Below, one piece after another: positions 16,466 through 49,881 of a DNA stretch of 64,000 nt (position 1 is the stretch's first letter; each line of letters starts with the position of its first letter). Source of the stretch: Flavobacterium sp. (GTDB taxonomy: Bacteria; Bacteroidota; Bacteroidia; Flavobacteriales; Flavobacteriaceae). The notes under the pieces are model-generated. The model was not told the DNA's origin, did not search any database, and saw only the letters and a program-made list of their open reading frames with translations. The position numbers and the translations under genes are program-made. The stretch spans positions 62,001-126,000 of the forward strand of contig NZ_JAIXUB010000009.1 in the NCBI RefSeq assembly GCF_027484205.1, given 5' to 3'.

Positions 16466-19400
16466 TTAGGGAATAACTTTTTTATAAACCACTTCTTTGT
16501 TTAGAGTTGTTATTCTAAAGAGCAACATTTCATGCAACATTCCACTAGTTAAGCGTAATTCAGTATTTTGAACATTTTTTTTGTCAATTAATAATTTACC
16601 AGATGTATCATATACTTGTACTTGATCAATTACAATATTTCCAGCATTAATAACAATATCGTGATACTGTTTGTAGATTACAATATTTTCTGAATTATTT
16701 ATTGGTTGAACTTTAGATAAGGAGTTTTTATAGACAATTTCAAATCGAGAATTAAAAGTACCTGCTTGAGTTACAAAATTATAATTAGACTTGCTTAAAT
16801 TGTGAATAGTATTTGTTAAGTTATCTTTTAGATAAATAGTTTGATTTGTGTTTAAAAAATATCCATCAACATTGTTAATTGAAATTGCGTAATTACCAGC
16901 ATTAGCTGACTTAAATCCTAAAGGAACAACATCATTTACATCAAGCGGAAAAGGTCTGGCTTGTATAGAGTATAGTTCATTATTTATTAATGAAGTTAGA
17001 GAAGTTGGACTTTCTTCAAAAAGCTTTCCATCTAAAGATGAATCAAAACCATTAGTAGCTTTTGGCATATATGCAATCATCGTTTGACAAAAAATTTCAG
17101 AAGTGGAACTTGTTAAATTCAACCAAATTCTATTTCTATTTAATGTATTCGTTTTGAAAAATTGATCAGCAGAATTTGAAATCCTCATGGAATTATTAAA
17201 AGACAATTGAGATGAAGTTGATTTAGCTATAAAGCCTTGTCCAATTTGAATAATTCCATTAGGTACTAAGTTTAATGGATCACCAATATTAGAGCTTGTC
17301 CCAACACCTCCAGCTAGAGTATAAGTTGCATAGGATGTTGAAGCTGAACTATTTGATTTTCTCCAAAAATAAAGTGCTTCTGTTAAATTATTAGACAGTA
17401 TAAAATCATCAGCGTTAATAGGTGAAGGATAAGGATTTCCAACAGCATTATAGGTGTTAGTATCTACAGCAACATTAACATCACCATTATTTAGTACACC
17501 ACTAAAAATTCCAGTCCAAACAGTAGGAACTAATGGATGATTATTGGGAACTCTAATTAAATATCCACTACCAATACTAAAATTTGTTGTAGATGGAGAA
17601 GCAACTACAGTGTATAAGTCACTAGCAGAATTGTAAGTATAAAATCGATTAGAAAGTGTTTGTGCAGAGAAAGATTGCAGTTGTTGTCCACTAACTGGTG
17701 ATGCCCATAATGTATAATCCAAACGCATTAAAGGATTACTATTTCTTTTGACAGAAACAATACCTGAGTTAACAGTATTAGAATTTTGGATTAAATTGGC
17801 ATTATTGTTAAAGGTTAGATTGCTGCCAGTTTCCACAAAAACTCCTCCATTGAGTGTAATTGTATCACCAGATTGAATGACAACTGTTGCATTATTAGTA
17901 ACTGTTAAATTACATGCGCTAAAACTTCCAGATTGTGAATAATTTCCAGTAAAAACAACTGAAGTAAATCCGTTTGGAAAACCATTACTCCATGAGTTTC
18001 CATCCCATATTGTTGAAAGAACGTTTAGAGTAACAATTGGTGAACTTACAGATGGACAAACACCGTTAGCAACTATAGCTCTAAAATATCTAGTTACAGT
18101 TAAATTTCCAATAAAGGAACCTAAAAGAACTGATGTTGTTTCTCCAGAGATATCTGTAAAATTTATACCATCGTTCGAAGATTGCCATTGAATTGAGCCA
18201 GTGCTTCCTGTTAAAGAAATGTCACTGGGTGTTGTCCCAGAACAAACCAATTGATCTGATGAAATTGTACCCACAACAGGAATTGGGGTTACCGTGAATG
18301 TTGTTGGAGAATTTGCTGTTCCTGAACTTGTTGTAACAGTTATAAGTCCTGATGTTAATCCAGTTGGTGCGCTCACGATTATTGTATTGGGTAAAATTGA
18401 GATAATTGTTGCTGATATCCCGTTAAATTTTACACTGACTGCTCCATTGTTTAAATTAAATCCAGTTATTGTTACTATCTCTGTTCCAGAGGCGCAATAA
18501 TTTGTAGGATTGAAAGCAGTAATTACTGGGATTAAATCGAATTCATCAGCTCCAATATCTGGAGATGTAGTATCTCGTGTATTTCCGTCATAATCGTCGG
18601 TATATCCTGCAATTGAAACACCTCCAGCATTTAATGAGTTAGGGACAGAACTATTGATATGTAGAAATTGAGAGGAGTTTCCATTAGTACTGATAAATGT
18701 AGTATTTTCAGAAACAGATAAACCGTCTCGAGTTACCATTCTAGTTTTATATGCAGCTAAAGTATTATCTGTATTAGTTCCGTCTGTATATATTGAAGTT
18801 CCAAAGAATGAGTTATTATTAGATGATGTGGAATAAGATGTTAACGTTGTAGATGACCTTCTGTAGGCAACCGCTAAGGCTGAACCGTTAGGTGTAGATC
18901 TATTTATAAATATATTATTTCGTAATGTAGTTGTAACTGCAGTGTTTACAAATATTGAGGAACATCCAAAAACAGCACCACTGCTTATTGCATCTAATAA
19001 TACCGTGTTGTAATAAACATTTACACTACTACCTGCGCTTATGTTTATTCCTGTTATTGGGTTTGTAGCGTTTGACAAATTGGCATTTAAATTTCCTATT
19101 AAATTATTATAAATATAAGTAGTACTGGCAGTTCCAGAACTTAAAATTCCAGAAACATTAGGATTTGTAGCGGTACTTGTTAGATTATAAATTTTATTTT
19201 TAAAAATATTTGCACTTCCAGTGGATGTTTTGTTTATTCCAATAACTGTAGGATTTATGCCACCATCGCTGTTAATGTTATTAACATTATTTCCAGATAG
19301 GGTTACAGTTGTACCAGTATTATTTCTTATTCCATACAAATTACTTCCTCCAGTTCCATTTAACATAGAAACGATATTATTTGTAATTATTTTTACGCCT

Positions 19401-22400
19401 GTTGATGTTGCTAAATATATACCGTAAATGTTACCAATTGTTGTCGAATTACAATTTAAATTATTGATATTATTATTTGAAATTGTTTCATTTATACCAG
19501 CTGAAGTGCTATATATACCATAAAGATTTCCTGCAACATTTCTGTTAAATGCTGTAATTGTATTACCAATAACATTTAAAGTAGATGCAGCACCCCAATT
19601 AACTCCTGATAATATTCCAGTTGAAGTTGATAAAGTAAAGTTTTGTAATGTATTTGAATTAATAGATATTGCGTTTGAAGATGTTCCCGTTGCATTAATT
19701 ATGCCTACTAAATTACCCGTTGACGAGTCTAAAGATATGTTTGAAATAGTGTTCGAATTTATGGCACACAAATTAGTAGCAGTTGAGGAGGCTTGAAAAT
19801 AAATCCCTGTAAAATTTCCAGCAACACTACTGCCTAAATATGTTGAAGTTCCTGTTGAAGTATTGTTATTATAGCCTATAGTATTTCCTGTTATTTGCGT
19901 ATTGTTTCCATATGTAGAGTTTGCAAAATAAATACCATATACTGTTGCTGCTGATGTAAAAGTTTGTGTTGTAGTTTGATAGATTTTATTGGAGTTAATA
20001 TTCCAATCCGTATTACCTGTTATAGCATAAATTGCAGCTGCTCCTGAGCTTAAAAAATAATCATACAAATTACAATTAGAGATGGTAATTCCGCTATTGG
20101 CAATAGTAGATGAGGATGTAGATCCGCTACTGTATATTAGTCGTGAAGGTAAATTTATTCCTGATGGGCCAATAGAACAGTAAGAAATAGTGTTGTTGTC
20201 ATTTCCTGTCGTTATTCCATTTCCAAAATGAATTACTCCTCCGGCAGTACTAAGAGTCGCAGTCATTGAACCCAGAATGGTACAATTAGTAATAGTGTTA
20301 TTGCTGGCATCTGCCGTAAAAAAGACTGTTGAAGTTCCTGAGGTTGACGATGAAGTAGTGTTTGAAAGAGTTAATGAAAAATTTGAATCATTTATTCCGT
20401 CAATAATAACATTATCTGCGCCATTGAATCTAATTAATGGATTCCCAGCTGTTATTGCTCCCGTTATTATTCTGTTTCCAATAGGTCTGATTGTTAAAGA
20501 GTTCCATAAACCTTGATTTAATGTTGCAGAAAAATTCCCTTCGTTTGTGTCTCCTCTAACTGTTATTATAATATCTGAACTTGTTTGTGATCCACCATTT
20601 ATTGCTATAAAAGCACTTCCTAAAGTAGTGTAAGAACCGTTTCCATATAAAGCGCCACTTACAATTACAGCACTTCTGTATTGTATACCTTCATTTTCGT
20701 ATGCACCGATATCGGGTGCAGTTCCTGTTCCTATATAGCCAGAACCACCTTGACGAATAGTTCCTACAAAATCATCTGGTATTGTTGAAATGATTGTTCC
20801 AGAACTCTCTATAAATGTAGGAAAAGAAGCATCAGGTTTAAGAAAATTACTATTACTACCAACAATACTTAAAAAAGTTATGTTTTCTGAAACAGAATTT
20901 ATTTCTCTTGGGCCAACTTTTGATTGAAATGAGGCTAAAGTTTGACAGTTATTTGTATTGTCAAAATATATTAGATTTGAAGCATTAGGAGTTCCAGCAT
21001 AGAATAAATTAGAATTTGAGGTTAAATCATAATTGGTAAATGCAGTATTGTTTCTATAATAAGCCATTGTTTTACCAGTTCCTTTAGCTGTAGATGTATT
21101 AATAAATATATTGTTTTTCAAAAGTAGTTTCGCACTAGTTGACGTTGCATTTGTAGCATGATAAAGTGCTTCAGTACCAAAATTAGTACCTGTTGAGGTT
21201 GTATTTATATATATTGTATTATGATACAAATTATACGAAGCATTTGCTGTAGATGAATTTACTGAAATACCTCTAATTGCATGTAGACTGGAAGAGGATT
21301 GAGCTTTCAAATCACTAATTAAATTATTGGAAGCTGTAACTGAAGTTGCTCCAGTAATGGATATTCCATTAACTACTCCTCCATTAATAGTACCATTTTG
21401 AGATAAATTGTAAATTTTGTTTTTTGATATTGAAATCAAAGTGCCACCACTGATTAATAATCCATTAATTGTAGGTCCAGTTGTTCCAGTGGATGAAATT
21501 GCAAAAATTGTATTTTGAGACACCAAATGATTACCTGCGCCACCTGATATTTGAACCCCTGAAATCGTAGCAGTTGCACCAGAGGACGAAAGTGTGTTAA
21601 TTGTATTTTGACTAAAATTTATTAAGTTACTTGAGTTTGAGTTAGCTATGCCTATTACATTTGCCCCAACAATAGATGAGTTTAGTCCAGTAATAGTGTT
21701 AGAATTTATTGTAAATAAACTGGAGTTTCCGGTAGAACCAATAATAACTCCTGTTATTGCCGCTTGCCCTGCTAAGTTGGATATAGTATTATTACTTACA
21801 CTTGATGTTGAACCAAATCCGTTCAGTGACATTGCAGTAATTGCACCTGATACAGAGCTCAAATTATTAAAAACATTTCCAGTAATTGTTTTTGAAGTTA
21901 GTCCTAAATCTCTTTGATTCCAACCTGATAAAATTGTGGTTCCTATTACTGATATGTTGGAAAAATTATTGTTATTATTCACAATTGTTGCGGTAGAATT
22001 TGAAGTAGCTGCACTTAAAAAGATGGTAACTGTACCACCAGAACCATTCTTTAAAAAACTTCCAACAATTGAATTATTTGATACTATTTGTGAACCTAAG
22101 TTTGGTAATGCAACACTATTTGATATAAAAGTAATATTGCCAGTTGTGGCTATACTCAAATTAGTAAACGAATTATTACTTATGTTTTGTGATTTAGTTG
22201 CAAAAGTATTTGAAATGAAGTTGTAAACCGAACTTGATAGAACTAAATTTGAAATTCCTCTAATGTCATTACCTTGAATATTTAAGGACGTTAAGGATGT
22301 TCCACTAGTGTTGTAAATGCCAAAAAATGTGCTAGTTGAAGCTGCAGTATAATTTGCTAATTCAGCAGTGGAGTCTCCAAGTTTATTTGAATTTATTGTT

Positions 22401-24214
22401 ATATTTGAACTTACCGCGCCAGCATTTAAAATTGCTGTTAAATTTGCATTTGTGGAGCTTATAGTGAAGTTTCTCAAGATGTTATTAGAAATTGATAAAC
22501 TACTCGCTGCTATACTGTTATATAAACCTCTAATTACTCCAGAGCCACTAAGAAATGCTCCATCTATAACATTAGAATCTATAGCGACAGGAAAACCAAT
22601 TCCTCCACTGTTAAAAATACCATAATACAGAGAGGTACTCGTGCCATAAACTGAATTGTTTAGGATAGCATTATTAGTTATTGAAATTGAACCAGTTGCG
22701 GTATTACATATTCCATAAAAGCTACATACTCCAGTTGTAGTAGTTCCTAGAGTTCCTGCTGTTATTGAATTGGGTGTGGTTTGACTACCAATTGTGTTTG
22801 AATTTATTATGAAATTCCCCAAGGTTCCGGAACTAAAGATGCCAATAATTGAATATCCATTTGCTGAACTTCCACTTGTACTTATTCCACCTATTAAGTT
22901 GTTTTGAATAGTTGAAGAAGTGGTAGTGGAGACATAAATTCCTTCAATTCTTGTAGCGTTAGTTGAAATGGAGTTAATTACAATAGCACTATTTAAAGTA
23001 TTACTTCCTATTATATTACCTGAGGTTGTGCCTAAATTTACAGTACCAGATAATACCGATATACCTGTAAAAACTCCAGGTGAGGATGTTGTTCCGCTGG
23101 TTGTTGAAAAATTTATTCCCGATATTATATTACCTTGTAAATTTGAAACTTGACTACCACTTGTTAATTCAATTCCTCTAAAAGAAGTGGCAAAATTTCC
23201 ATTATAAATAGTGTTTCCAGTTCCAGAAGAGTTAGCATAACCAACAATATTATTAGTTATGTTGTAGTTTCCTCCTCCTGGAGTAGTAATTCTAATTCCT
23301 CTGTGAGTTAATGCATTTGCATTAGATGTTCGTGTAGATGTTTGGATAAATTTATTATTTGAAATTGTCCAACTTGTACTATTTGAAAATATATATATGC
23401 CCGTAGAAGAAACCGTACTGTTAAAATAATCTTGAATAATACAATTTAATATGCTATTATCACTGTTGTCAATTGTTAAGGAAGTTCCTGCAGAATAAAT
23501 TGCATTGGTTGGTAAATTTGTTCCTGCAGGATTAATTATGCAATTTGATATTTGATTAAAGTCATTACCTGTTACAGTTCCTGTTGAAAACAATATAGTT
23601 CCAGAACTTGCAGAGGTTGATGATCCAGAAATAGTGCAATTTGAAATAATATTATTTGATGCATCACCAATAAAACGAATTGTTGAAGTTGCAATTGTTG
23701 CTGAAACTGTGTTATTGATTAATTGTAATGCATTACCAGTCGTATTTAATCCATTAATTGTAACATTATCAGCTCCATTAAAATTGATTAAAGGGCTTCC
23801 AGCAGCTATTGATCCACTAATAGTTCTTAAAACTCCACCACTTGGAATTATTTGAATGCTTGAGTATAATGCTGACCCTGAGCCACTGGCATTTAAAGTT
23901 GCTGTAACGGTTTCAGTTGTGTTGCCGGTAACAGCAATATTTATACTGCCTTTATGAATGCCAGAATTGACAGAATCAAAAGCAAGTTTTAATGTAGTAT
24001 AGTTTGAAGGTCCGATAGTTCCAGATGTAGCAGTAACTGAGATTTGACTGTAAGATGATAAGTTTATAAAAAATAAAAAAACAATAGTCGTTAATAATTG
24101 TTTCTTAATTTTAGTATTACAGAATAGACAAATCACAAAAAATTTATCAAATTGAAAACTAAAAAATGAATTTAAAAACATCCACTTGAAAATATAATTA
24201 TTAAAGTTTTTCAT
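16466..24214 (-). CDS. Giant secreted right-handed beta-helix protein with T9SS C-terminal sorting domain
   Basis: The 2582-residue protein is rich in Ser, Thr, Asn and Gly. After a 57-residue N-terminus ending SYSQ come two homologous beta-helix modules (about 58-1170 and 1175-1890). Each has an FNGADNV motif early, many NN-I-NN-I turns, a late NNIFIN segment, and a closing PDIGA motif. Then follow an IPT/TIG domain (about 1892-1980), an Ig-like domain (about 1980-2070), a strand-rich region with TITLNGGVFVETGSNLTF, and a C-terminal type A sorting domain (VYDTSGKLLIDK ... KKVIP). It should be exported by Sec, cross the outer membrane through type IX secretion and stay on the cell surface as an adhesin or polysaccharide-binding protein. 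The ligand is unknown. Confidence 0.88.
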   Translation of the reverse strand: MKNFNNYIFKWMFLNSFFSFQFDKFFVICLFCNTKIKKQLLTTIVFLFFINLSSYSQISVTATSGTIGPSNYTTLKLAFDSVNSGIHKGSINIAVTGNTTETVTATLNASGSGSALYSSIQIIPSGGVLRTISGSIAAGSPLINFNGADNVTINGLNTTGNALQLINNTVSATIATSTIRFIGDASNNIISNCTISGSSTSASSGTILFSTGTVTGNDFNQISNCIINPAGTNLPTNAIYSAGTSLTIDNSDNSILNCIIQDYFNSTVSSTGIYIFSNSTSWTISNNKFIQTSTRTSNANALTHRGIRITTPGGGNYNITNNIVGYANSSGTGNTIYNGNFATSFRGIELTSGSQVSNLQGNIISGINFSTTSGTTSSPGVFTGISVLSGTVNLGTTSGNIIGSNTLNSAIVINSISTNATRIEGIYVSTTTSSTIQNNLIGGISTSGSSANGYSIIGIFSSGTLGNFIINSNTIGSQTTPNSITAGTLGTTTTGVCSFYGICNTATGSISITNNAILNNSVYGTSTSLYYGIFNSGGIGFPVAIDSNVIDGAFLSGSGVIRGLYNSIAASSLSISNNILRNFTISSTNANLTAILNAGAVSSNITINSNKLGDSTAELANYTAASTSTFFGIYNTSGTSLTSLNIQGNDIRGISNLVLSSSVYNFISNTFATKSQNISNNSFTNLSIATTGNITFISNSVALPNLGSQIVSNNSIVGSFLKNGSGGTVTIFLSAATSNSTATIVNNNNNFSNISVIGTTILSGWNQRDLGLTSKTITGNVFNNLSSVSGAITAMSLNGFGSTSSVSNNTISNLAGQAAITGVIIGSTGNSSLFTINSNTITGLNSSIVGANVIGIANSNSSNLINFSQNTINTLSSSGATATISGVQISGGAGNHLVSQNTIFAISSTGTTGPTINGLLISGGTLISISKNKIYNLSQNGTINGGVVNGISITGATSVTASNNLISDLKAQSSSSLHAIRGISVNSSTANASYNLYHNTIYINTTSTGTNFGTEALYHATNATSTSAKLLLKNNIFINTSTAKGTGKTMAYYRNNTAFTNYDLTSNSNLFYAGTPNASNLIYFDNTNNCQTLASFQSKVGPREINSVSENITFLSIVGSNSNFLKPDASFPTFIESSGTIISTIPDDFVGTIRQGGSGYIGTGTAPDIGAYENEGIQYRSAVIVSGALYGNGSYTTLGSAFIAINGGSQTSSDIIITVRGDTNEGNFSATLNQGLWNSLTIRPIGNRIITGAITAGNPLIRFNGADNVIIDGINDSNFSLTLSNTTSSSTSGTSTVFFTADASNNTITNCTILGSMTATLSTAGGVIHFGNGITTGNDNNTISYCSIGPSGINLPSRLIYSSGSTSSSTIANSGITISNCNLYDYFLSSGAAAIYAITGNTDWNINSNKIYQTTTQTFTSAATVYGIYFANSTYGNNTQITGNTIGYNNNTSTGTSTYLGSSVAGNFTGIYFQASSTATNLCAINSNTISNISLDSSTGNLVGIINATGTSSNAISINSNTLQNFTLSTSTGILSGVNWGAASTLNVIGNTITAFNRNVAGNLYGIYSTSAGINETISNNNINNLNCNSTTIGNIYGIYLATSTGVKIITNNIVSMLNGTGGSNLYGIRNNTGTTVTLSGNNVNNINSDGGINPTVIGINKTSTGSANIFKNKIYNLTSTATNPNVSGILSSGTASTTYIYNNLIGNLNANLSNATNPITGINISAGSSVNVYYNTVLLDAISSGAVFGCSSIFVNTAVTTTLRNNIFINRSTPNGSALAVAYRRSSTTLTSYSTSSNNNSFFGTSIYTDGTNTDNTLAAYKTRMVTRDGLSVSENTTFISTNGNSSQFLHINSSVPNSLNAGGVSIAGYTDDYDGNTRDTTSPDIGADEFDLIPVITAFNPTNYCASGTEIVTITGFNLNNGAVSVKFNGISATIISILPNTIIVSAPTGLTSGLITVTTSSGTANSPTTFTVTPIPVVGTISSDQLVCSGTTPSDISLTGSTGSIQWQSSNDGINFTDISGETTSVLLGSFIGNLTVTRYFRAIVANGVCPSVSSPIVTLNVLSTIWDGNSWSNGFPNGFTSVVFTGNYSQSGSFSACNLTVTNNATVVIQSGDTITLNGGVFVETGSNLTFNNNANLIQNSNTVNSGIVSVKRNSNPLMRLDYTLWASPVSGQQLQSFSAQTLSNRFYTYNSASDLYTVVASPSTTNFSIGSGYLIRVPNNHPLVPTVWTGIFSGVLNNGDVNVAVDTNTYNAVGNPYPSPINADDFILSNNLTEALYFWRKSNSSASTSYATYTLAGGVGTSSNIGDPLNLVPNGIIQIGQGFIAKSTSSQLSFNNSMRISNSADQFFKTNTLNRNRIWLNLTSSTSEIFCQTMIAYMPKATNGFDSSLDGKLFEESPTSLTSLINNELYSIQARPFPLDVNDVVPLGFKSANAGNYAISINNVDGYFLNTNQTIYLKDNLTNTIHNLSKSNYNFVTQAGTFNSRFEIVYKNSLSKVQPINNSENIVIYKQYHDIVINAGNIVIDQVQVYDTSGKLLIDKKNVQNTELRLTSGMLHEMLLFRITTLNKEVVYKKVIP

Positions 24215-24543
24215 AACTAAAGATTTTAAAATATGTGTTAGGTAACTGGATTATCACAAATTTCACAGTTGTTTATCAAACTGCGATTAATTAAATATAC
24301 TCTTGTAGTGTTAAGAGTTTTCGCTTAGTTTATTCTCTTTTTTTGGAATTAGAAAAATATAATTATAACTATGACAACAAAAATAGTTTTTAAGATAACA
24401 AAAAATTAAATACGCAAAAAAAACCGTTTAATGACACACAAAACCGACAAAATACACTAATATTATTTTAGTTATTGTTTATAACGAAAAAAACCTCGTT
24501 TCAATTAAGAAACGAGGTTCAGTATGAAAAATTGAATAGGAAA
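24215..24543. other. 329-bp gap between giant gene and pyk
   Basis: It holds the pyk terminator (24487-24519) and AT-rich sequence upstream of the giant gene. A TATTTTTG box on the minus strand at 24378-24385 is a possible -7 element, but no correctly spaced -33 element was found. No ORF or RNA structure was recognised otherwise. Confidence 0.5.
24487..24519 (-). terminator. Terminator of pyk
   Basis: AACCTCGTTTC and GAAACGAGGTT form an 11-bp perfect stem with a 6-nt loop; on the minus strand it runs into seven T. It lies 25 nt after the pyk stop. Confidence 0.9.
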
Positions 24544-30309: not shown

Positions 30310-30528
30310 ATGACAGCAACAGCATTGAAACACGTAAATGATAAATTGAAAAATTTACCAGATAGCTTAATAGATGAAGTAGAAAGTTTTATAGATTTTT
30401 TAGCTTACAAACATTCTCAAGAAAGTAATCAAATTCCTCAATGGCATAAAGATGAAGTTTCAAAACGTATAAAACTTAATAAAAAACCAGTTGATGCATT
30501 CGAAATGATAGATAATTTGGACGAATAG
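30310..30528 (+). CDS. DUF2281-type antitoxin
   Basis: The 72-residue protein begins with a helix LKNLPDSLIDEVESFIDFLAYKH, the typical N-terminus of DUF2281/VapB-like antitoxins. A charged C-terminal tail, which would bind the toxin, ends in IDNLDE. The toxin gene starts 3 nt after its stop. It should neutralise the RelE/ParE-like toxin and probably represses the pair. It lies directly after rnhA and appears inserted there. Confidence 0.82.
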   Translation: MTATALKHVNDKLKNLPDSLIDEVESFIDFLAYKHSQESNQIPQWHKDEVSKRIKLNKKPVDAFEMIDNLDE

Positions 30529-30531
30529 TAA

Positions 30532-30831
30532 ATGGCAAACTACACTATTACTGCAGATCCAAAAGTTAAGAATGATTTAATAGATGCTCGTGATTTTCTT
30601 AACTCAAGAAGAAAAGGTTTTGGTAAAAAATTCATACAAGAATATAGAACTACTTTAAAACATTTACAAAAAACTCCAAATTTTCAAGTTAGATATAATG
30701 ATGTTCATTGTTTGCCAATGAAAACTTTTAAATACATGGTTCATTTTAAAGTTGATCAAGAAAACAAAACAATTCACATTTATGCAGTGCTTTCAACATA
30801 TTTAAATCCTGATAAAAATTGGATTAAATGA
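30532..30831 (+). CDS. RelE/ParE-family toxin
   Basis: The 99-residue basic protein has the compact RelE/ParE fold pattern: helix DPKVKNDLIDARDFLNSRRKG, a second helix KFIQEYRTTLKHLQ, and strands FKYMVHFKVDQ and TIHIYAVLSTYLNPD. The family contains both mRNA interferases and gyrase poisons; the sequence alone does not decide which. It is paired with the DUF2281 antitoxin upstream (3-nt spacing), forming a type II module. Confidence 0.85.
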   Translation: MANYTITADPKVKNDLIDARDFLNSRRKGFGKKFIQEYRTTLKHLQKTPNFQVRYNDVHCLPMKTFKYMVHFKVDQENKTIHIYAVLSTYLNPDKNWIK

Positions 30832-31974: not shown

Positions 31975-33873
31975 ATGAGTGACGCAATCAAACACGAATG
32001 TGGAATTGCACTTTTACGATTAAAAAAACCGTTAGAATTCTACAAAGAAAAATACGGTTCGGCTTTCTACGGAATACAGAAAATGTATCTTTTGATGGAA
32101 AAGCAACACAATCGCGGTCAAGATGGTGCCGGATTCGCATCGATTAAACTAGATGTTGAACCAGGCGAACGATATATCAGTCGTGTTCGTTCTAACGATG
32201 CACAAGCGATTCAAGATGTTTTCAAACAAATCAACGAACGTGTAAATGAAGAATTGACGTTACATCCTGAATACGCTGATAATGTTGCGCTACAAAAAGC
32301 TAATATTCCTTACATCGGAGAATTATTTCTTGGTCATGTACGCTACGGAACTTTTGGTAAAAATAGTATCGAAAGTGTTCATCCGTTTTTGCGTCAAAAC
32401 AATTGGATGCATCGAAATCTTATTGTTGCCGGAAATTTCAACATGACGAATGTTAAAGAACTTTTCAATAGTTTGGTAGAATTAGGTCAACATCCTAAAG
32501 AAATGGCAGATACCGTTACCGTAATGGAAAAAATTGGACATTTTCTTGACGATGAAGTTACCGATTTATATCAAGAATGTAAAAACAACGGATTATCAAA
32601 AAGAGAAGCTTCACCTGTTATTGCTGAAAAACTTCCTGTTGCCAAAATATTAAAACGTGCTTCTAAAGGCTGGGATGGCGGTTATGCTATGGCAGGACTT
32701 TTTGGTCACGGCGATGCTTTTGTTTTTAGAGATCCAGCTGGAATTCGTCCAGCGTATTTTTATGAAGATGATGAAATTGTTGTAGTAGCTTCTGAGCGAC
32801 CAGTTATTCAAACCGTTTTCAACGTTGCTTTTGACAAAGTGCAAGAATTGCAACCAGGAAATGCTTTAATTATTAAAAAAAACGGAACCGTTACAGAAGA
32901 AGAAATTATTGTTCCAACAGTTAAAAAAGCTTGTTCGTTTGAAAGAATCTATTTTTCAAGAGGAAGCGATGCTGAAATTTATCAAGAACGAAAAGAATTA
33001 GGTAAATTAATACTTCCAGCAGTACTTGAATCGATTGAGAATGATACCGATAACACAGTTTTTTCTTATATTCCAAATACTGCAGAAACTTCATTTTACG
33101 GAATGGTGGAAGCAGCTAATGATTTCTTAAATCAAAGAAAGAACAAGTTTATCCTTGATAATAGAAAAAAACTGACCAAAGATTCTTTAGAAGAATTGTT
33201 AGCGGTTAAAATTAGAACGGAAAAAATCGCCATTAAAGATGCTAAATTAAGAACTTTTATTACCGATGATAGTAGTCGTGATGATTTGGTAGCGCATGTT
33301 TATGATGTCACTTATGGTGTTATAAAACCAGAAGATAATTTGGTAATTATTGATGATAGTATCGTTCGCGGAACTACTTTAAAAATGAGTATTCTAAAAA
33401 TGATGGATCGATTGAATCCAAAACGCATTGTAGTAGTTTCGTCAGCACCACAAATTCGTTATCCAGATTGTTATGGAATCGATATGGCAAAGCTAGAAGG
33501 ATTAGTAGCTTTTCAAGCAGCAATTGAACTTTTAAAAGAGAGAAATCAATATAAAATTGTAGATGAAGTTTATAAAAAATGCAAAGCTCAAGAAAACTTA
33601 AAAGACTCAGAAGTAGTTAATTACGTTACAGAAATATATTCGCCATTTAGCGATATAGAAATATCAAATAAAATTGCTCAATTATTAACTTCTGATGACA
33701 TAAAAGCTGAGGTAAAAATCATTTTTCAGTCGGTTGACAACTTGCATATTGCCTGTCCGAAGAATTTAGGCGATTGGTACTTCACTGGAGACTATCCAAC
33801 ACCAGGTGGAAATCGTGTTGTAAACCGAGCATTCATGAACTTTTACGAAGGAAAAAACGCTAGAGCTTATTAA
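31975..33873 (+). CDS. purF: Amidophosphoribosyltransferase (long Bacteroidota type)
   Basis: PurF makes phosphoribosylamine from PRPP and glutamine, the first committed step of purine synthesis. The catalytic Cys is in HECGIALLRL, eight residues after Met, so a short propeptide would be removed. The N-terminal glutaminase has HNRGQDGAG, GHVRYGTFG and VAGNFN; the PRPP motif is VIIDDSIVRGTTLK. At 632 residues it is well over 100 longer than E. coli PurF (505). The extra length lies partly in the glutaminase domain and partly in a C-terminal extension beyond the PRT core (KIIFQSVDNLHIACPKNLG onward). The extension's role is unknown. Confidence 0.93.
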   Translation: MSDAIKHECGIALLRLKKPLEFYKEKYGSAFYGIQKMYLLMEKQHNRGQDGAGFASIKLDVEPGERYISRVRSNDAQAIQDVFKQINERVNEELTLHPEYADNVALQKANIPYIGELFLGHVRYGTFGKNSIESVHPFLRQNNWMHRNLIVAGNFNMTNVKELFNSLVELGQHPKEMADTVTVMEKIGHFLDDEVTDLYQECKNNGLSKREASPVIAEKLPVAKILKRASKGWDGGYAMAGLFGHGDAFVFRDPAGIRPAYFYEDDEIVVVASERPVIQTVFNVAFDKVQELQPGNALIIKKNGTVTEEEIIVPTVKKACSFERIYFSRGSDAEIYQERKELGKLILPAVLESIENDTDNTVFSYIPNTAETSFYGMVEAANDFLNQRKNKFILDNRKKLTKDSLEELLAVKIRTEKIAIKDAKLRTFITDDSSRDDLVAHVYDVTYGVIKPEDNLVIIDDSIVRGTTLKMSILKMMDRLNPKRIVVVSSAPQIRYPDCYGIDMAKLEGLVAFQAAIELLKERNQYKIVDEVYKKCKAQENLKDSEVVNYVTEIYSPFSDIEISNKIAQLLTSDDIKAEVKIIFQSVDNLHIACPKNLGDWYFTGDYPTPGGNRVVNRAFMNFYEGKNARAY

Positions 33874-33927
33874 AAAAATCATAAATAGTGCATTTCATCG
33901 ATTATTATTGTAATTCATCAATAATAT

Positions 33928-33959
33928 TTTGTGACACATTGCACCGCCATATATCTTTG
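33928..33959 (+). promoter_or_regulatory. Promoter of small RNA copy 1
   Basis: TTTG at 33928-33931, 20-nt spacing, then TATCTTTG at 33952-33959: a full-consensus Bacteroidota promoter. The start is predicted at about 33966. Confidence 0.75.
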
Positions 33960-33965
33960 GAGAAC

Positions 33966-34034
33966 CATAGCATTAGTAGGTTAAGTTTATGGTAGATTTG
34001 GGGCAAAAAGGGTGAAAGAAATTTCACCTTTTTT
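33966..34034 (+). ncRNA. Tandem small RNA, copy 1
   Basis: This is a predicted transcript of about 69 nt. The stem CCATA (33965-33969) / TATGG (33988-33992) encloses an 18-nt loop. A single-stranded region with GATTTGGGGCAAAAAGG follows, then a terminator hairpin. A 39-nt block (33973-34011) recurs in copy 2 with one mismatch, at the same distance from its -7 box. The terminator stems differ in sequence. The family is not recognised; Rfam has Flavobacteria-specific RNAs to compare (for example Flavo-1). Confidence 0.68.
34011..34034 (+). terminator. Terminator of small RNA copy 1
   Basis: GGTGAAA / TTTCACC stem with a GAAA tetraloop and six T. Confidence 0.85.
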
Positions 34035-34136
34035 ATTTTCTATAAGTTCCTCTTTTAAAAAGGCGATTTTCACTCTCATTTGCCTATCATTCCAATATAA
34101 TTAACGATTTTCAGGTAGTAAAAATGCATTCATTAG

Positions 34137-34144
34137 TATGTTTG
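34137..34144 (+). promoter_or_regulatory. -7 box of small RNA copy 2
   Basis: TATGTTTG matches TAnnTTTG and lies 13 nt before the shared block, exactly as in copy 1. The -33 region (TTTT, about 25 nt upstream) is weaker. Confidence 0.6.
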
Positions 34145-34150
34145 CAATTC

Positions 34151-34221
34151 CATATATTTAGTAGGTTAAATTTATGGTAGATTTGGGGCAAAAAGGCGTC
34201 CGCAACTGTGGACGTCTTTTT
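34151..34221 (+). ncRNA. Tandem small RNA, copy 2
   Basis: This is a predicted transcript of about 71 nt. It repeats the layout of copy 1: CCATA (34150-34154) pairs with TATGG (34173-34177) around an 18-nt loop, the core at 34158-34196 differs at one position, and a terminator of unrelated sequence follows. Between the copies are about 100 nt without similarity, so the duplication is old except for the core. Confidence 0.65.
34195..34221 (+). terminator. Terminator of small RNA copy 2
   Basis: GGCGTCCGC / GTGGACGTC stem (two wobble pairs), AACT loop, then five T. Confidence 0.82.
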
Positions 34222-34239
34222 AAAATTCACACACACAAA

Positions 34240-34268
34240 AAAACCGGTTGCTACACACAACCGGTTTT
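34240..34268. terminator. Bidirectional terminator downstream of sodA
   Basis: AAAACCGGTTG / CAACCGGTTTT forms a perfect 11-bp stem with a 7-nt loop and A/T-runs on both sides. It mainly serves the minus-strand sodA. Confidence 0.9.
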
Positions 34269-34289
34269 TAAATTTATTAAAACAAAGTG

Positions 34290-34895
34290 TTATTTTGCTT
34301 CTGCGTATCTTCTAGAAACTTCATCCCAATTAATAACATTAAAGAAAGCTTCAATATAATCTGGACGACGGTTTTGATAATTTAAGTAGTAAGCGTGTTC
34401 CCAAACATCCATTGCTAAAATTGGAGTTCCACCACAACCAACGCCTGGCATTAATGTATTATCTTGGTTTGGAGTTCCGCAAACTTCCAATTTTCCGTCT
34501 TTAACGCAAAGCCAAGCCCAACCAGAACCAAATTGTGTTGCTCCAGCTTTTGCGAAAGCAGCTTTAAATTCTTCAAATGAACCTAAATCTTTTTCAATTG
34601 CAGCTAATAAATCACCTGTTGGTAATCCGCCACCATTTGGAGACATTACTGTCCAAAACAAATTATGGTTGTAAAATCCGCCACCATTATTTCTAACAGC
34701 AGCTTTAGTCATATCCAAATTTTTAAGAATTTCTTCAATAGATTTTCCTTCTAAATCTGTTCCTGCAATGGCCGCATTTAAGTTAGTTGTATATGCATTG
34801 TGATGTTTTGAATGGTGAATTTCCATTGTTCTTGCATCAATATGTGGTTCTAACGCGTCATAAGCGTAAGGTAATTGTGGTAATTCAAATGCCAT
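34290..34895 (-). CDS. sodA: Superoxide dismutase (Fe/Mn family, Mn-type features)
   Basis: From the ATG at 34895 ([20 protein letters not shown]) the product is 201 residues; the tracked start at 34985 adds 30 implausible residues. Metal ligands are seen in [26 protein letters not shown] and [17 protein letters not shown]. The Gln in GTPNQDN, in the C-terminal domain, and a Gly-rich segment before the second His resemble Mn enzymes rather than Fe enzymes; cambialistic use is possible. It removes superoxide in the cytoplasm. It diverges from the GNAT gene, and both promoters lie in about 100 bp. Confidence 0.94.
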
Positions 34896-49739: not shown

Positions 49740-49792
49740 AATCGTCTAATTTATTTGAAACGAATGGTCTGCGCATTTTTGCAATCCATTTT

Positions 49793-49860
49793 CCCGCTTT
49801 TCTCTGCAATCTTTTCTTTTTTTAAAAGAAAAAAAGAAAAGGATTTCCGTTATAATCGGG
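49793..49860. repeat. Imperfect palindrome with A/T-rich centre
   Basis: Outer CCCG (49793) and CGGG (49860) flank ATCTTTT and AAAAGGATT. The centre is a 13-bp T-rich stem starting CTTTTC, paired with its A-rich complement. It resembles dispersed intergenic elements with AATC-TTTT...AAAAGGATTTCCG in flavobacteria. Confidence 0.6.
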
Positions 49861-49881
49861 GTTATTTAATAAACTATCCAT

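Follow-up and report, generated by a model that had tools for sequence, protein, structure and literature searches.

A candidate multicopy small RNA family of Flavobacteriaceae and complementary leaders in envelope-protein mRNAs

Two similar units that lie in tandem between purF and sodA in this Flavobacterium genome belong, as judged from sequence, to a small RNA (sRNA) family that extends throughout Flavobacteriaceae and has no counterpart in Rfam. Computational comparison reveals the anatomy and conservation of this family, mRNA leaders complementary to its conserved core, changes in these partners that match lineage-specific changes in the sRNAs, and a shared promoter element. The leaders, which mainly belong to mRNAs of envelope lipoproteins, are probably switched off by the sRNAs. 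Flavobacteriaceae is a large and ecologically important family, flavobacteria mostly initiate translation without Shine-Dalgarno sequences, and to our knowledge few regulatory RNAs with known targets have been described in the family. Here, the sRNA family is accompanied by precise candidate target sites and by the shared element. If the proposed regulation is true, it would open up the RNA control of envelope proteins in these mostly non-Shine-Dalgarno bacteria, and the unusually long trans pairing, together with sponge-like partners, would make sRNA-target co-evolution traceable over many genera.

The tandem units and their promoters

The features of the locus are given below with their positions in the window, i.e., the whole stretch of 64,000 nucleotides that was analysed.

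31975..33873, forward strand: purF, the upstream neighbour conserved by synteny in most loci
33890-33919, forward strand: direct repeat GCATTTCATC-N10-GTAATTCATC, a LytTR-like candidate site upstream of unit 1 (profile of 212 upstream regions)
33927..33959, forward strand: promoter of unit 1 as a whole (sequence and upstream profile)
33927-33931, forward strand: -33 element TTTTG of unit 1 (sequence and upstream profile)
33952-33959, forward strand: -7 box TATCTTTG of unit 1 (sequence and upstream profile)
33964..34034, forward strand: sRNA unit 1, predicted length about 70 nt, putative 5′ end
33965-33992, forward strand: 5′ hairpin of unit 1
33973-34011, forward strand: 39-nt block of unit 1
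from 33993, forward strand: linker TAGATTTGGGGCAAA of unit 1, left free of pairing in the predicted fold
34005-34034, forward strand: terminator hairpin of unit 1
34137-34144, forward strand: -7 box TATGTTTG of unit 2
34149..34221, forward strand: sRNA unit 2, putative 5′ end, hairpin from 34150
34158-34196, forward strand: 39-nt block (core) of unit 2
34190-34221, forward strand: terminator hairpin of unit 2
34239-34269, no strand assigned: inverted repeat resembling a bidirectional terminator, between unit 2 and sodA
34290..34895, reverse strand: sodA, the conserved convergent neighbour (synteny)

The initial annotation had described two units, each with a TAnnTTTG box followed after exactly 13 nt by a shared 39-nt block (38 of 39 positions identical, spacing of the repeats 185) and each with its own terminator, the stem sequences of which differ while pairing is kept in both. 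All of this agrees with the present analysis, to which the 5′ hairpin, the upstream direct repeat, the family-wide conservation and the targets are new. The 5′ hairpin of each predicted RNA has the form CCATA...TATGG, and the ungapped similarity between the units spans 60 nt at 85% identity, with A in the loop flank of unit 2 where unit 1 has G (TTAAATTT). Both RNAs fold better than their shuffled versions (z of -2.8 and -5.6). As far as sequence can tell, each unit has its own promoter and terminator and lacks a conserved ORF, as expected of trans-acting sRNAs. A peptide-coding role of the core (ATGGTAGATTTG...) was rejected because the reading frame is not kept among relatives. The stretch GGTAGATTTGGGGC of the sRNA could be used as a probe site.

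Alignment of 212 upstream regions recovered TAnnTTTG and the -33 region, plus a 20-nt direct repeat (approximately GC..TTcATC) located at -74 to -45 relative to the RNA. The element of unit 1 has the top score within the 64-kb window (27.1), and the repeat pattern has 11 matches in the genome versus none for reversed controls. Apart from unit 1, the matches include sites in front of genes with a predicted secreted product, an M14 carboxypeptidase and several surface proteins among them, and some are unconvincing (the upstream region of dnaA and intragenic sites). The position of the element before genes of predicted secreted and surface proteins suggests an envelope regulon. It is common to sRNA promoters and most targets, and at 31 of 48 sites antisense to the core (hereafter anti-core sites) it outscores each of 60 shuffles, mostly from a position 80-100 nt ahead of the site; sponge-like RNAs have weak scores for it. 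Loci of this genome in which the element precedes a protein predicted to be secreted or at the surface include L151, L153, L156, L172 and L174. The second-best match in the window (24419-24455, reverse strand) precedes the gene of a predicted surface protein of 2582 aa (16466-24214, reverse strand), whose leader shows no pairing with the sRNA.

Unit 2 lacks the direct repeat in this genome, and therefore the two copies may be under different control. A block like TGCCTATCATTCCAATATA is present instead before unit 2 (34083-34120) and recurs in close relatives ahead of their last copy (L006, L010, L029, L050 and L083), which suggests another control for unit 2.

The GCATTTCATC-type repeat perhaps represents a site of a LytTR response regulator, which it resembles. 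Published LytTR sites consist of a pair of repeats of 9-11 nt separated by 11-13 nt, and YpdB of E. coli binds repeats of GGCATTTCAT (PMC4847170). When likened by DNA site alone, the flavobacterial element shares with these sites the direct repeats, nearly the same half-site and a distance of approximately two helical turns, but its spacing is about one nucleotide shorter: the 10-nt repeats start 20 nt apart, which leaves a spacer of 10 (or 11 for repeats taken as 9 nt), and the LytTR rule fits only to within a nucleotide. That the element is instead the site of a different regulator family is nearly an even bet, considering that LytTR sites share no common consensus (PMC4847170) and that this analysis linked the element to no regulator; the arrangement (direct repeats of approximately 10 nt at a distance of two helical turns, located ahead of the -33 element) and the closeness of GCATTTCATC to the YpdB motif argue for a LytTR-type protein.

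Distribution of the family and its relation to known sRNAs

Of 150 relatives searched with a pattern allowing up to three mismatches, 63 have the core, and these all belong to the same genus; the remaining genomes of this sample, all from other families, have none. A looser pattern applied over GTDB species found the core in many genera of Flavobacteriaceae; among the matches listed, these are Flavobacterium, Maribacter, Zobellia, Aquimarina, Winogradskyella, Kordia, Salegentibacter, Allomuricauda and Eudoraea. A covariance model built on 25 diverse sRNA copies, these two units included, matched 63 of 74 sampled Flavobacteriaceae genomes, with 1-6 tandem copies in each, and none of approximately 224 genomes assigned by table ordering to other families of the order, a search in which strict filters may lose weak matches. 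Unit 1 matches this model, which was trained partly on these units, with an E value of 1.1e-19.

The synteny is nearly always purF, sRNA array and convergent sodA. The loop, the linker and GGGGC are near-invariant across the family, terminators and spacers diverge, and a core of about 35 nt recurs family-wide far beyond chance. All 40 distinct pairs of hairpin arms fold into a CCA...TGG hairpin, including a change from AAC/GTT to GAC/GTC, and this hairpin pairs in 85% of cells. Formal covariation is modest because the 3′ arm of the hairpin is nearly invariant, and RNAalifold gave a different, weak helix on the alignment.

The trans-acting sRNA proposed in the initial annotation is still the best reading of these sequences, and the contrary findings that it had named and that can be sought in genomes did not turn up. 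Beyond this locus, many genera conserve the core together with its promoter and terminator. Within the 3.6-Mb genome, the 39-nt block is present just twice (reversed-pattern controls: 0) and is therefore not a scattered repeat, which rules out a mobile repeat. The sRNA core was not found in viral contigs, in which the anti-core pattern had 16 matches, near chance by a rough estimate. As the initial inspection by eye had indicated, no known family was recognised: a search of Rfam 15, Flavo-1 included, gave no match at the gathering score for the two units, nor for the target and sponge-like loci, and we found no description of this sRNA family in the literature. Flavo-1 (RF01705) is likewise a small structured RNA motif of Flavobacteriaceae, but neither unit matches it; the sole Rfam match in the window is a Flavo-1 RNA at 49786-49867 on the reverse strand (68.1 bits).

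In its predicted mode of action, the family is like other multicopy sRNAs such as FopS and LhrC but falls outside FopS by Rfam score. FopS/GibS of Bacteroides (RF04319) comprises multicopy sRNAs of approximately 65-70 nt with a conserved 5′ part and a variable terminator, the copies of which are scattered and target SusC-type mRNAs (PMC11697453). The flavobacterial RNAs share the multicopy nature, the size, the conserved 5′ part, the variable terminator and a housekeeping-type promoter, as well as, by prediction, pairing with envelope mRNAs around the start of translation, but their copies are in tandem at one locus (purF/sodA) and pair over about 30 nt with leaders of CAP-domain lipoproteins. 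With 21.5 bits against a gathering cut-off of 56 (E of 0.098 over 81 nt), the unit is not a member of RF04319; the same 21.5-bit score corresponds to a weak end-to-end resemblance at 33966-34038. LhrC1-5 of Listeria are homologous sRNA copies that a two-component response regulator controls and that act on mRNAs of envelope or surface proteins (PMC4132741), as is proposed for the flavobacterial RNAs, but they belong to an unrelated organism, the predicted flavobacterial pairing is far longer, and the sequences were compared only through Rfam.

Rfp18 of F. psychrophilum, a strongly structured RNA conserved within the genus, pairs via its third stem-loop with metalloprotease and adhesin mRNAs (PMC9723704). 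As a genus-conserved structured Flavobacterium sRNA that controls mRNAs of secreted proteins, it is similar enough to raise the idea that the present family is among the RNAs catalogued in F. psychrophilum as Rfp1-89, perhaps as Rfp18. Such an identity is rather unlikely, since the anatomy and targets described for Rfp18 (a third stem-loop and protease mRNAs) differ, in a comparison by description only, from the two stem-loops and CAP-lipoprotein targets of the units.

Complementary leaders and sponge-like RNAs

Targets were sought by pattern and model searches, and the resulting list is not exhaustive. The reverse complement of GGTAGATTTGGGGCAA has two non-self matches in the genome, each with two mismatches. 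The first is located 37 nt before the AUG of a lipoprotein with a CAP domain (PF00188), whose leader cttgccccacatctatcttaaaatttaacctactacttATG complements the loop and linker and ends beside the AUG. The second led to an L,D-transpeptidase (YkuD_2), the leader of which has a strong site, catcccaaatttaccataattaacctattaaaacgaATG, directly downstream of a TATGTTTG box. The five genomic occurrences of TTAACCTAYTA are in both sRNAs (antisense), both leaders and one coding region. Among relatives, an anti-core stretch of about 30 nt beside the AUG was observed in 26 of 31 CAP-lipoprotein loci of Flavobacterium (z ≤ -4.8); the other five are without a strong site, and some starts may be misassigned. 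The duplexes of CAP leaders have energies of approximately -30 to -47 kcal/mol (median -39.9), compared with -25.7 kcal/mol for the best of the control cores (one reversed and 30 shuffled, the shuffles preserving base composition only) and -27.5 kcal/mol for the best non-self duplex window in the 64 kb. The anti-core site of the L,D-transpeptidase was not seen in 10 homologues from other genera, and on this sample a family-wide role of the protein as a target is unsupported outside this genome. GGGGC, initially suggested as a seed, does join the predicted pairing, but the pairing spans almost the whole core, loop and linker included, and not just a short seed.

An anti-core sequence model was also searched in 28 genomes. 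Anti-core stretches occur in the leader and early codons of a conserved micro-ORF of 41-42 aa, MNxATNLPEQPTNDESKFKETL...KKxFML (genomes G163, G325, G321, G353, G173 and G230; loci L394, L395, L344, L397, L292 and L349), and further sites belong to a 71-aa protein (G040), a secreted protein (G004) and additional CAP lipoproteins. Weaker matches to the model (e.g., L345, L350, L352, L354, L355 and L357) were not counted as sites.

Several anti-core RNAs have no ORF. At L348 (G047), the anti-core stretch lies ahead of a terminator. In G183, G389 and G207, an ORF-less RNA ends in a terminator and has one strong anti-core stretch besides weaker ones (2040 and 2347 in L393, 740 and 1036 in L389, and 987 in L390); it is arranged in tandem about 300 nt apart in G183 and G389 and lies downstream of hflX in G183. 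Such terminator-ended RNAs probably titrate the sRNA as sponges in some genera. L292 (G173) was discarded as an ORF-less sponge after comparison with other genera had revealed the micro-ORF there. At position 374 of L341, an anti-core stretch that follows a stop codon and precedes a terminator is a possible 3′-UTR sponge.

The partners follow the sRNA types of their lineages. The sRNAs of G183, G389 and G207 are of the GTTCATGGTAAGATTT type. Their sponge-like RNAs have the strongest pairing with this type, although the margin to the next-best type is below 1 kcal/mol; targets of GGTAGATTT-type genomes favour their own sRNA types by approximately 4-8 kcal/mol. That complementarity to mRNAs from other loci is conserved and changes along with the sRNA of each lineage points to pairing in trans.

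Proposed regulation of envelope mRNAs

We consider it quite probable that a multicopy trans-acting sRNA controlled by a response regulator blocks translation initiation of co-regulated envelope mRNAs. The two units would give rise to paralogous trans-acting sRNAs of about 70 nt, each independently transcribed. A response regulator that may belong to the LytTR family would bind the 20-nt-spaced repeat upstream of the promoters and turn on the sRNA array plus a set of envelope and surface genes. Some of the co-regulated mRNAs would carry in their 5′ leader an antisense copy of the core that ends beside the start codon, with which the loop AGUAGGUUAAG and the linker GGUAGAUUUGGGGCAAA would pair over approximately 25-30 nt; the duplex at the AUG would then block translation initiation and probably also be exposed to RNase III. 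Predicted targets are the mRNAs of CAP-domain lipoproteins (across Flavobacterium), the YkuD_2 L,D-transpeptidase (this genome) and the 41-42-aa micro-ORF (other genera), and the ORF-less RNAs would probably titrate the sRNA in some genera. Since the repressive duplex would form at the AUG of a co-regulated mRNA, the arrangement would be an incoherent feed-forward loop. A more tentative proposal, to which we would give somewhat less than an even chance, is that the whole family uses one circuit, in which tandem sRNAs, trans leaders of near-full-length complementarity, dedicated sponges (in part tandem) in some genera and one response-regulator element provide a tunable envelope feed-forward.

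The sRNA might act in the opposite direction, the pairing with leaders opening an inhibitory structure or protecting the 5′ region of the mRNA. Pairing by itself is compatible with either sign of regulation, and two protease mRNAs reach their full levels only with Rfp18 (PMC9723704). The CAP and L,D-transpeptidase leaders are predicted to be mostly unpaired (fractions of 0.61 and 0.67), which disfavours activation by melting, and the duplex terminates beside the AUG; taken as a whole, we regard activation as improbable. Very improbable is a main role in protein binding, in which the core would be a protein site and the complementary leaders secondary: conservation over about 35 nt exceeds what a short seed needs and FopS RNAs bind RbpB (PMC11697453), but near-perfect antisense copies at start codons that track sRNA lineage changes require pairing.

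Elsewhere in the window, two adjacent small ORFs of 72 and 99 aa at 30310-30831 (forward strand) have, by eye, the look of an antitoxin and a RelE/ParE-type toxin.
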